Of a stretch of DNA of 64,000 nt, positions 15,444 through 51,162 are shown piece after piece. The position numbers and the translations under genes were made by a program. The notes below the pieces were generated by a model. That model was not told where the DNA came from. It ran no database searches and was given only the letters and a program-made list of their open reading frames with translations. The DNA lies in NCBI RefSeq assembly GCF_019216885.1, contig NZ_JAAQRC020000001.1, positions 4,529,501 through 4,593,500 on the forward strand, in the 5' to 3' direction. Within the stretch, counting starts at the first letter, position 1; the number at the start of each line of letters is the position of its first letter. The DNA is from Methylobacterium sp. SyP6R. Its GTDB lineage: Bacteria > Pseudomonadota > Alphaproteobacteria > Rhizobiales > Beijerinckiaceae.

Positions 15444-15446
15444 TCA

Positions 15447-15600
15447 TACCAACGGTCGTTGAAAACGACCTTTGGTTCCGTTCTCGAATTTTCGCCAAGC
15501 CTCTGGCTTGAGATCGAAAATTCGAGATGGGTCAACGGCCCCGTCGATCTCGGGCTTGCCCGAGATCGAATCGATGCGTCAGCATCTTGCGCCGTTGGTA
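15447..15600. repeat. Structured repeat element, family B copy 1 (154 bp)
   Basis: Termini are TACCAACGGTCGTT and CCGTTGGTA, inverted over 9 bases (TACCAACGG). The element is flanked on both sides by TCA (15444-15446 and 15601-15603), a possible 3-bp target duplication. Inside are hairpins: GGTCGTT-GAA-AACGACC near the left end, AATTTTCG/CGAAAATT in the middle, GATCTCGGGC-TT-GCCCGAGATC, and GATGC-GTCA-GCATC. A second copy is at 50974-51142. Confidence 0.85.
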
Positions 15601-15690
15601 TCAGTTCGTCACCGGCTTCGCGGTCCCTGGCGAATGACGCTGTTTCGCTATCCAGGGTGGCAAATGCCAACCTGGATCGTGAGTTTCTAT

Positions 15691-29851: not shown

Positions 29852-30367
29852 TCAGCGCGATCGGCGGACGAGCCAGCCCGCCGCGAAGGCGAGGACGGCG
29901 ATGCCGACGACCGTGTTGGTGCGGTGCCCTTCGACGTAACGCAGGGCGCTCTGGCCGTAAGCCTCGCCGCGGCGACGAACCGCATGGGCGGCGTGGCGTC
30001 CGTCCTCGACGAGGTGATCGGCCCGCTTGCGCGCGGTGTGGGCGAAATCCCCGGCGCGCTCACGCGCCTCCTGTGCGAGATTTTCGGCACGCTCACGCGC
30101 CTCATGGGCGAGATCTTCGGCGCGCTCACGCGCCTCGTGGGCTAGATTTTCGGCGCGCTCACGCGCCTCATGGGCGAGATGGCGCCCGTCGTCGACGAAG
30201 TCTTCCGCCCGGTCGCGGGCGCGGCCATAGGCGTATTGCGCGCCGCCGGCCACCTGGTTGGCGGCGCCGCGGACCTGGCGGGCGGGGTCGCCGGTGAGGC
30301 CGCCGAGCGCGGTCTGGACGCGGCCCTTCAGGTGACGGGACGCCCCGTTGAACTGGTCGCGGTTCAT
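29852..30367 (-). CDS. CsbD-like protein with LEA-type 11-residue repeats and membrane tail
   Basis: 171 residues. The N-terminal segment (MNRDQFNGASRHLKGRVQ, then ALGGLTGD) is CsbD-like. The middle (about 65-125) is built of 11-residue units of the form AHEARERAE(N/D)L, repeated at least five times, as in LEA group 3-type helical stress proteins. A C-terminal membrane segment (TVVGIAVLAFAAGWLVRR) resembles the ElaB/YqjD tail anchor. The start follows CTCAGGAGGACAGC. The protein is probably a stress-induced, membrane-attached helical filament protein; this is inferred from composition and neighbours. Confidence 0.8.
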   Translation of the reverse strand: MNRDQFNGASRHLKGRVQTALGGLTGDPARQVRGAANQVAGGAQYAYGRARDRAEDFVDDGRHLAHEARERAENLAHEARERAEDLAHEARERAENLAQEARERAGDFAHTARKRADHLVEDGRHAAHAVRRRGEAYGQSALRYVEGHRTNTVVGIAVLAFAAGWLVRRSR

Positions 30368-44986: not shown

Positions 44987-45220
44987 GCGACCTCATCCTG
45001 AGGTGTCATACGGAATCCGGAAGATCACTTCCGGATTCCGTATCATCAGCCCGCGCGGCGCCTGAGCGAAGCCGATTTCCGCATCGCGAAGCGATCAATC
45101 GGAAAGCGTATCAGTCGATCAGAGATCGACTGACCTCGAAGGAGGGCTCCATTTTGCTCGGCGACTTCTGGAGCCCTCCTTCGAGGCTCCCTTACGGTCG
45201 CACCTCAGGATGAGGTCGCG
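44987..45220. repeat. Palindromic repeat, family A copy 3, split by a family C element
   Basis: The left end GCGACCTCATCCTGAGGTG and right end CACCTCAGGATGAGGTCGC are intact, but the copy is 234 bp instead of about 128 because 45009-45110 is a separate element. Removing that element plus one TCA restores a family A sequence that matches copy 4. The gap 44949-45254 holds only this. Confidence 0.9.
45009..45110. mobile_element. Structured 102-bp element, family C copy 1
   Basis: It starts with a perfect hairpin TACGGAATCCGGAAG-ATCA-CTTCCGGATTCCGTA and ends with a second hairpin (CCGATT/AATCGG with inner ATCGC-GAA-GCGAT) and CGTA. TCA flanks both ends (45006-45008 and 45111-45113). It has no coding capacity. 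The second copy at 47977-48078 has exactly the same length. Confidence 0.8.
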
Positions 45221-45254: not shown

Positions 45255-46490
45255 CTACACCACCAACCCACCCACCGGCCGCAACGCCTCCGTCCCCGGG
45301 AAGACGCTGCGCCCGAGCACCATCGGCGACAGGCCGAACAGGTCGGCGGCCAGGCCCTTGGCGATTGCCCGCACGTCGGTGGTGGGCGCGAGGTCGCGGC
45401 CGTCGCGGAGCTGGGCGGGGCCGAGGCCCGGCCAGTCCGCCAGCACCCGGCCGCCGCGCACCGCGCCGCCGAGGAGGAACGCCACCGTGCCGGTGCCGTG
45501 ATCGGTGCCGATGGTGCCGTTGACCCGGGCGGTGCGGCCGAACTCGGTGACGACCAGGATCGCGGTGTCGGACCACCGCGGCGCCAAAATCTCGGAGAAG
45601 GCCGAGAACACGGCGTCGAGCCCGCCGAGCAGCCCGGCGAGGCGGCCGGTGGCGCCGCCCTCGTCGGCGTGGGTGTCCCAGCCGTCGAGGGCGAGCGCCG
45701 CGATGCGCGGGCCGTCATCGGCGGCGATCAGCCGGGCCGCCCCCTCGGCGAGGCCGCGCAAGCCCCCGCTGCCCTTCGGCCCGCTCTTGGGGTCACCCTT
45801 GGGCTCGCCCTTGGCCAGGGCATCGACGTCGAGGCCGCGGGCAAGCGAGGCGGCGAGTGCGGGGTCGTGCGCTTCATAGAGGCCGAGTACGCGCCGGCCG
45901 AGCTCGTCGCTCGCCCGCGGCAGGCGCGGCGGCGCCCAGCCGAGGACCGGGGCGGGCCCGCGCAGGATCAGCGGCGGCGTCACCCCGACGCCGAGCGCCG
46001 TGCGGGGCGGGATGCCCTCCCCCGCCGGCAGGGCGGCGACGAGGCGGTTGAGCCAGCCGCTCGCGGTGTGGCCGGGGCCGGGCTGGCCGGTCTCGAGCAC
46101 GTCCTGCCCGTCGAAATGCGAGCGCTCGCGGTAGGCGGTGGCGGCGGCATGCACCACCATCGCCTGGCGGGCGGCGTAGAGCCGCGCGAAGGTCGGCAGC
46201 GCCGGATGCAGGGCGAAGAAACCGTCGAGGGGAAGCGCCGCGGCGGGCCCGTCGCGGGTCAGCGCGATCCCGGGCCGCAGATCCGCATAGGCCGGGTCGC
46301 CGAGGGGCGCCACCGCCGAGAGCCCGTCGAGGGCGCCGCGCAGGATCACCACGACGAGGCGGGCATCCCGGGCACCGGGCGCCGCGTAGGCGGTGCGGGG
46401 CACGGCGCTCCAGGCGAAAAGCGCGCCCGCGGTGCCGAGGATCGCCCGGCGGCTGGGATGGAACTCGCAGACTTCATCCATGGGGATCAC
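45255..46490 (-). CDS. DUF1501 family secreted protein (Tat substrate)
   Basis: 411 residues with a twin-arginine signal (HPSRRAILGTAGALFAWSAV) and DUF1501 signatures LVVVILRGALDGLSAVAPLG, HSFDGQ-like ERSHFDGQDVLETG, and AILVVTEFGRTARVNGTIGT, DHGTG. These proteins are sulfatase/phosphatase-fold exported proteins without a firmly assigned function, almost always encoded with a DUF1800 protein. The start overlaps the end of the DUF1800 gene by 4 bp. Confidence 0.92.
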   Translation of the reverse strand: MIPMDEVCEFHPSRRAILGTAGALFAWSAVPRTAYAAPGARDARLVVVILRGALDGLSAVAPLGDPAYADLRPGIALTRDGPAAALPLDGFFALHPALPTFARLYAARQAMVVHAAATAYRERSHFDGQDVLETGQPGPGHTASGWLNRLVAALPAGEGIPPRTALGVGVTPPLILRGPAPVLGWAPPRLPRASDELGRRVLGLYEAHDPALAASLARGLDVDALAKGEPKGDPKSGPKGSGGLRGLAEGAARLIAADDGPRIAALALDGWDTHADEGGATGRLAGLLGGLDAVFSAFSEILAPRWSDTAILVVTEFGRTARVNGTIGTDHGTGTVAFLLGGAVRGGRVLADWPGLGPAQLRDGRDLAPTTDVRAIAKGLAADLFGLSPMVLGRSVFPGTEALRPVGGLVV

Positions 46491-47854: not shown

Positions 47855-47976
47855 GCCCGTGCCCTCCCGTTTCGTCAGGCGTGATGACGCGCCCGGCTGG
47901 CTGAACCGATGCTGAGTGCAGGATGACGATTTCGTAAGGTTGTTTCTGGGGGGAAACGTTTGATTTGTTTGACTGA

Positions 47977-48078
47977 TACGCAATCCGGAAGATCACTTCC
48001 GGATTGCGTATCACCAGCCCGCGCGGCGCGTGAGCGAAGCCGATTTCCGCATCGCGAAGCGATCAATCGGAGATCGTA
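47977..48078. mobile_element. Structured 102-bp element, family C copy 2
   Basis: The same architecture as 45009-45110. The first hairpin is TACGCAATCCGGAAG-ATCA-CTTCCGGATTGCGTA, again perfect, although the fifth base pair differs from copy 1 (C-G instead of G-C). TGA flanks both ends (47974-47976 and 48079-48081). Confidence 0.8.
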
Positions 48079-48100
48079 TGATGTCATGCCCTGCCCACCC

Positions 48101-48228
48101 GCAACCTCATCCTGAGGTGTTAGTCGATTGAAGATCGACTGACCTCGAAGGAGGGCTCCAGGAATCGCAGCGGCATCTGGAGCCCTCCTTCGAGGCTCCC
48201 TTCGGTCGCACCTCAGGATGAGGTCGCG
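48101..48228. repeat. Palindromic repeat, family A copy 4
   Basis: Uninterrupted 128-bp copy, with GTTAGTCGATTGAAGATCG at the point where copy 3 carries the family C element. With family C copy 2 it fills the gap 47855-48280; no gene is seen. Confidence 0.9.
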
Positions 48229-50923: not shown

Positions 50924-50973
50924 GCCTTTGCCGAGAGTGTCGAACGACCTCGGAGGCTGTGTGAGCTGACAGA

Positions 50974-51142
50974 TGCCAACGGTCGTTGAGAACGACCTTT
51001 GGTTCCGTTCTCGAATTTTCGCCAAGCCCGAGGTCCCGGACTTCTGGGCTTGGTGTCGAAAATTCGAGATGGGTCGACGGCCCCGTCGATCTCGGCCTTG
51101 CCCGAGATCGAATCGATGCATCAGCATCTTGGGCCGTTGGTA
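50974..51142. repeat. Structured repeat element, family B copy 2 (169 bp)
   Basis: Left end TGCCAACGGTCGTTGAGAAC and right end GGGCCGTTGGTA. It matches 15447-15600 along its length, with an extra 15 bp in the central hairpin (AAGCCC...GGGCTT). The flanking trinucleotides are AGA and TGA, so a target duplication is not evident here. Confidence 0.85.
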
Positions 51143-51162
51143 TGACGGAAACTAAACCCGCG

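Follow-up and report, generated by a model that had tools for sequence, protein, structure and literature searches.

At one place in the DNA analysed here (the window, 64,000 nucleotides of the Methylobacterium sp. SyP6R genome), a palindromic repeat is split by a 102 bp folded element that has the same three bases, TCA, on both of its sides. The question raised by this locus is whether a short non-coding unit has moved into the repeat and, if so, what kind of enzyme moved it.

The interrupted repeat in the window

The repeat belongs to family A and the element to family C. These, together with the related features of the window, are as follows.

44987..45220, plus strand: copy 3 of the family A palindromic repeat, interrupted by the family C element
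45006..45008, plus strand: left TCA of the 3 bp target duplication (direct reading and genome-wide rule)
45009..45110, plus strand: family C element, 102 bp, with TACG...CGTA ends (sequence read directly)
45111..45113, plus strand: right TCA of the 3 bp target duplication (direct reading and genome-wide rule)
45008..45043, plus strand: hairpin 1, 16 pairs and a 4-base loop, the outermost pair taking in A45008 from the left TCA (fold and covariation)
45073..45108, plus strand: hairpin 2, 9 + 5 pairs (fold and covariation)
47977..48078, plus strand: second copy of family C, not within family A, flanked by TGA at 47974-47976 and 48079-48081
48101..48228, plus strand: family A copy 4, uninterrupted
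15446..15601, plus strand: family B element, ATACC...GGTAT, with TCA on both sides, occupying the corresponding site in another copy of family A
15602..15636, minus strand: 35 bases matching the end of an IS110-family element (2 mismatches), beside family B

Direct reading confirmed what the first-pass annotation had proposed for family A copy 3, that it is interrupted by a 102 bp unit at 45009-45110 between two TCA flanks: the order is GAGGTG-TCA, then TACGG...GCGTA (102 bp), then TCA-GTCGATC. Removal of the element and one TCA leaves GAGGTGTCAGTCGATC, which is present intact elsewhere in the same genome, for example at L004, L125, and L033. Copy 4 of the window had been put forward as the matching empty form. 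The filled/empty comparison holds through exact empty forms such as these; copy 4 itself is GAGGTGTTAGTCGATT, in which TTA replaces TCA and the final C is a T. The two family C copies of the window (45009-45110 and 47977-48078) have 94% identity. For the gene at 45255-46490 (minus strand), the five closest orthologues have neither family A nor family C in the adjoining 0.9 kb; they are therefore uninformative on family C alone, and the empty site at the window locus rests on the paralogous family A copies. Elsewhere in the window, at 30003-30180, there is a 33 bp tandem repeat with four registered copies at a spacing of 33.

Copy number, target duplication, and empty sites

In the genome as a whole (7.5 Mb, six contigs), 89 right ends of family C were identified with a pattern allowing up to two mismatches, and none with the reversed-pattern control. 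The terminal inverted repeats are imperfect (TACGnnnTCCGnnnGATC, both ends), and the terminal-repeat pattern has 117 exact places, against none for its control. The copies at 88 of the 89 right ends were read (C2:680923 was left out), and 72 of the 88 have a recognisable left hairpin; the other 16 were excluded from the triplet counts. The element is 102 bp long in 57 of the 72 copies and 94-121 bp in the remainder, and is judged to be non-coding by its length. Forms of 104 bases, of 122/123 bases, and of half length also occur, so that these are modular repeats. Hairpin 2 is present alone, as a unit of about 40 bases, at L104 and L085, the former in the usual family A site. Hairpin 1 is present alone at L215 and L216, and at L215 the flanks lengthen the palindrome by nine bases. 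The right-hand module, made of the linker and hairpin 2, is in tandem at L341, L345, L352, L353, and L359, in the two related genomes G125 and G036.

Matches to family C at E ≤0.001 were found in 38 out of 99 genomes, the own genome included: 35 of the 59 genomes of the same genus and three outside it, which are borderline (E >0.0003). Seven copies, in seven different places, are identical across 104 bases (the 102 bp element and one base on each side), and this identity at separate sites suggests recent spread.

The triplets to the left and right of the element are equal in 60 of the 72 copies (TGA 52, TCA 6, TAA 1, and TTA 1), compared with 45.9 on average, and 54 at most, in 10,000 shuffles of the triplets. 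TNA stands on both sides in 63 copies and the middle base is equal in 60 of these, a count as high as which was not reached in 20,000 shuffles. When the 13 copies adjoining an IS110-family element are dropped, equal triplets remain in 47 out of 59. The 12 copies with unequal triplets, five of which are TGA/CGA, may reflect later mutation; they count, as do the 16 copies excluded above, against the explanation favoured below. In the seven identical copies, the triplets on both sides are TCA, TCA, TGA, TGA, TGA, TAA, and TGA; since identical copies carry different triplets according to site, the triplet is a property of the target and not of the element. The 3 bp target duplication, which the first-pass annotation had raised as a possibility, is thus borne out across the genome, with TNA as its class and TGA as its commonest member, and the result that would have spoken against it, a genome-wide lack of matching trinucleotides at the flanks, did not occur.

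Empty sites were also sought in relatives. The flanks of 26 copies were joined, with the element and one triplet removed, and searched for in seven related genomes, where 40 candidates per genome, from a capped list, were scored. In base-by-base alignments, at least one of the seven relatives spans an insert-free junction for eight of the 26 copies. The cleanest cases, gap-free and with a single TGA, are L080 in G012, G015, and G039, and L028 in G054. One few-gap insert-free case each is seen for L212, L054, L109, and L029, and the alignments are poorer for L072 (78-86% identity) and L103 (82%). The triplet is altered in some relatives, for example TGC at L028 in two. Among the other 18 copies, several have weaker or partial junction matches (e.g. 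L015, L044, L102, and L213, unaligned), and the flanks of L105 are 78 bases apart in G054. The comparison of orthologous filled and empty sites therefore succeeded at these other copies and not at the window locus, where the five orthologues are without family A. Taken with the paralogous empty family A sites, the insert-free junctions uphold the earlier claim that the 102 bp unit is mobile. Equal triplets, triplets that depend on the site in identical copies, and insert-free relatives together show that the family C element moves and duplicates a 3 bp TNA.

Sorting of 102 distinct family A half-sites in the own genome gave 70 that are continuous, 12 with family C, two with family B, and 18 others; the fractions are not genome frequencies, because these loci were largely fetched around family C copies. 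The 70 uninterrupted half-sites dispose of the possibility that every family A copy is filled. All 14 inserts (12 of family C and two of family B) are at one position, each after the half-site at T[CT]A, and 11 of the 72 two-ended copies of family C are at this main family A site. At L009 and L024, the element lies in family A variants, where it takes the far-side TGA of the small hairpin; at L091, it borders a family A repeat, at the outer edge. Within family A, the main site is strongly preferred and other sites are used too. The family A motif is absent within 90 bases in 52 of the 72 copies.

Target preference, hairpins, and nested insertions

A target matrix was built from 50 copies that are off the main family A site and away from IS110, with L009 and L091 included. 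In all 50, the left triplet is T-N-A, with a middle G in 42 and C in eight, and the surroundings are weakly palindromic (GWN-TNA-NWC). There is G at −3 in 31 of the 50, A or T at −2 in 34 and at +4 in 39, and, at +5, C in 23, G in 17, and A in none. The matrix ranks the main family A site first among the TNA sites of copy 4, with the far-side TGA of L009 and L024 second, and places the main site in the top 1.7% of all TNA sites on the two strands of the window (2556 in total).

The orientation of insertion is biased. Among the 59 copies away from IS110, 47 have TGA as their left triplet and nine have TCA, against about equal window totals of 557 TGA and 604 TCA, and at the family A site the middle base is a purine in nine and a pyrimidine in two (L018 being scored by its right triplet). 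This 47:9 bias is not expected from a simple enzyme acting on a symmetric TNA and counts against the explanation favoured below. Stop-codon targeting was considered as a cause and rejected, as the open-frame counts are without excess (16/15/8 among 59 copies, at 136 codons). Coding calls based on GC3, for which we chose the threshold, were made over 62 copies: 15 have same-strand coding sequence called upstream, three are antisense, and 44 are without a call. The left TGA is an in-frame stop in 13 of the 15, which is read as survival of harmless insertions. Nor is it supported as a rule that the internal TCA, which lies at the base of hairpin 1, acts as a guide by pairing with the target TGA. 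The targets of seven well-folded rows with an internal TGA are ACA (three, two of which, L341 and L345, are the same place), TGA (two), GGA (one), and TCA (one); in the own genome, an internal TGA goes together with a left TCA at L094 and L095, but not at L212.

When folded as single-stranded DNA, the element forms two main hairpins (z = −4.8), and 98.5% of the cells are paired in 48 distinct 104-base rows. Both-side changes are seen in 84 cells, against a shuffled mean of 22.5, and in 12 pairs, against 4.2, with none of 500 shuffles as high, although shared ancestry can inflate such counts relative to shuffles. Slid partners, in which the ancestry is kept, gave at most 13 cells with both-side changes, a control that is biased in favour of the modelled pairing since the structure was derived from one of the 48 rows. 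Comparison with Rfam gave eight matches up to E = 1 (best 0.0025), to animal-type microRNA families and each far below the gathering score of its own family; these are taken as chance palindromes.

Family B shows equal TNA triplets in seven out of eight copies. Based on the outer TAC...GTA, the duplication rule, and the family A site that the two families have in common, family B is probably moved by the same enzyme as family C. The second family B copy of the window (50973-51143) has unequal outer triplets, AGA/TGA. An IS110 end (CAGTTCGTCACC) follows three of the eight family B copies, including the window copy at 15446-15601.

Of the 72 family C copies, 13 adjoin, at their left end, a 1478 bp element with Pfam IS110 domains whose own end reads ...GACGAACT|GATACG. 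At both L011/L178 and L046/L176, a family A repeat is parted in two, with one part flanking the IS110 element on its outer side and the rest flanking family C on its far side; the order of insertion was therefore family C into family A, followed by IS110. The leader of the IS110 element holds CGTATCAG, an 8-base match to the target; as the estimated chance of such a match in the compared stretches is about one in eight, it is at most a pointer to guidance by a bridge RNA. At L218 and L219 (near C1:2635643 and C1:1822361), another IS-like insertion splits hairpin 1 of family C at about the same place.

Candidate movers and known systems

Variable, site-derived TNA triplets, together with empty sites that hold one triplet, are the mark of a transposase with a 3 nt staggered cut. 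It is therefore highly likely that family C is non-autonomous and MITE-like, and that a DDE-type transposase cutting TNA moves it in trans. Such a transposase would recognise the imperfect terminal repeats (TACGnnnTCCGnnnGATC) and cut the target with a 3 nt stagger, the element would be inserted by a DDE-type cut-and-paste or copy step, and gap filling would yield the 3 bp duplication. Family A would be a target on account of the good TNA sites at the foot of its small hairpin, and the finished insertion may then become the landing pad for the IS110-family element, integrating at CT|GATACG.

A full-length IS sharing the TACG...CGTA ends had been proposed by the first-pass annotation. In the own genome, the PF01609 and PF00665 neighbourhoods, the terminal-repeat places examined, and the fetched loci yielded no autonomous element with such ends. 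The scan for TNA-TAC...GTA-TNA covered 22 PF01609 neighbourhoods and seven of the eight PF00665 neighbourhoods (L258, at a contig end, was excluded), its reach being such that elements extending more than 1.5 kb past the matched domain would be missed. It returned only chance pairs with poor ends, relatives of families C and B, pairs formed by separate family C copies, and IS-split family C copies. Among 100 of the 117 terminal-repeat places, seven that are partnerless, and likewise three other loci, proved to be relatives of family C, truncated forms of it, single hairpins, or copies split by an IS. Which enzyme is missing can now be put to a direct test in Methylobacterium, a genus with harmless laboratory strains.

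A 3 bp TNA duplication is the group rule of the IS1031-like elements of the IS5 superfamily. Family C might be a deletion derivative of such an element, moved by a resident IS5-type transposase. IS5-type elements in the own genome do have TNA duplications (TAA at L198 and L199, TGA at L188, L191, and L196), but their terminal repeats, GAGCG... or GAGTCTGTCC..., do not match the TACGnnnTCCG of family C, and the 22 PF01609 neighbourhoods contain no equal-TNA TAC...GTA pair with matching ends, the one pair there agreeing at 4 of 18 positions. With the duplication in common but the terminal sequences different, this derivation is unlikely, though not far-fetched. IS5-type elements with GAGTCTGTCCGGG-like ends were also observed at L188, L190, L191, and L196, those of L188 (where it follows CCTGAG) and L190 being inside palindromes of family A. 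A plain MITE model explains neither the covariation of the hairpins nor the one-way orientation towards TGA. An undescribed, structure-recognising enzyme, which would read the ends as folded DNA yet make a 3 bp duplication and would move the unrelated hairpin families B and C in Methylobacterium as well as CIR-type repeats, is rather improbable.

Slightly less probable again is that family C is kept after genes as a functional hairpin, a terminator or mRNA-stabilising structure, with selection setting its conservation and orientation. The in-frame stops at 13 of 15 upstream-coding copies would fit this, but the plain open-frame count has no excess, the bias persists at the family A site (9 vs 2), surviving insertions would spare genes anyway, and the duplication would still need explaining. 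An origin as a REP/REPIN-type element, with a Y1 (RAYT) transposase working on hairpins of single-stranded DNA, would account for the high copy number and for the strong compensatory change in the two conserved hairpins, and family A is REP-like in look. However, Y1_Tnp (PF01797) has no match in the own genome, while the control search was positive in 5 of 14 genomes, including those of E. coli and Caulobacter, and Y1 transposition is not expected to leave a 3 bp target duplication that varies by site; we regard this origin as very unlikely. It is barely credible that mosaic shuffling or gene conversion between repeats put family C into family A without transposition, given the 52 of 72 copies that lack a nearby family A motif and the flanks joined insert-free in relatives for 8 of 26, which refute it as a general mechanism. 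The repeats are nevertheless modular, with 104-base, 122/123-base, and half forms and the tandem modules of G036 and G125, and shuffling could be the source of single odd copies.

The preferred reading, a MITE-like element moved in trans, can be set beside systems already known. No description of the family C element was found in the open-licence PMC literature, covered mostly at title and abstract level. Family C has the features of a MITE in being short, non-coding by length, and present in many copies, with a target duplication and imperfect terminal inverted repeats, whereas an autonomous relative with the same ends was not found in the own genome for two transposase families; it is filed as MITE-like because no parent IS was found. 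An IS5/IS1031-derived MITE would show the TNA duplication, as family C does, and also the terminal repeats of its parent, which the IS5-type elements of the own genome do not share with it.

By their description, the RUP, ERIC, and Correia/NEMIS MITEs resemble family C in being about 100 bp, non-coding, and of high copy number, with a target duplication and a terminal TA (PMC2229807). Those elements pair only their two ends, whereas each half of family C folds alone into one hairpin, and family C has a 3 bp TNA duplication, with no matching IS found. Known bacterial MITEs are described there as mostly A+T-rich (PMC2229807). The one MITE reported in Methylobacterium extorquens AM1 and DM4 is MiniMdi3, at about 400 bp, in 4 and 8 copies, respectively, and related to the resident ISMdi3 (PMC2680597). 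Compared by description, it is like family C in being non-autonomous and in the same genus, and unlike it in size, copy number, and the presence of a resident IS.

IS elements that target REP palindromes have been described (PMC1525189), as have IS621 and its bridge RNA (PMC11208160). Likewise, the IS110-family element here is found repeatedly at one repeat position, beside a CT core; in contrast to the REP-targeting elements as described, the repeat that is hit is itself mobile and, in at least two cases, had already landed in an older palindrome. This is a nested chain of mobile DNA, from palindrome to MITE-like element to IS110-family element.

The closest architecture is that of CIR, in Caulobacter and Brucella, described in a 2007 review as about 110 bp long, with two stem-loop arms, a linker, a terminal TA, and a conserved GANTC; its target duplication is tabled there with a question mark and its mobility mechanism is given as unsettled (PMC2229807). 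Likened by description and not by sequence, family C is also alphaproteobacterial, with two independent arms, a linker, a terminal TA, and a similar length. In contrast to CIR, it has no conserved GANTC, a motif that only 18 of the 48 distinct rows contain and that falls in the hairpin 1 loop region in nine of 48, but its target duplication is shown. Family C works like a MITE with the two-arm architecture of CIR, a two-arm hairpin repeat shown to move, with a landing rule and empty sites.
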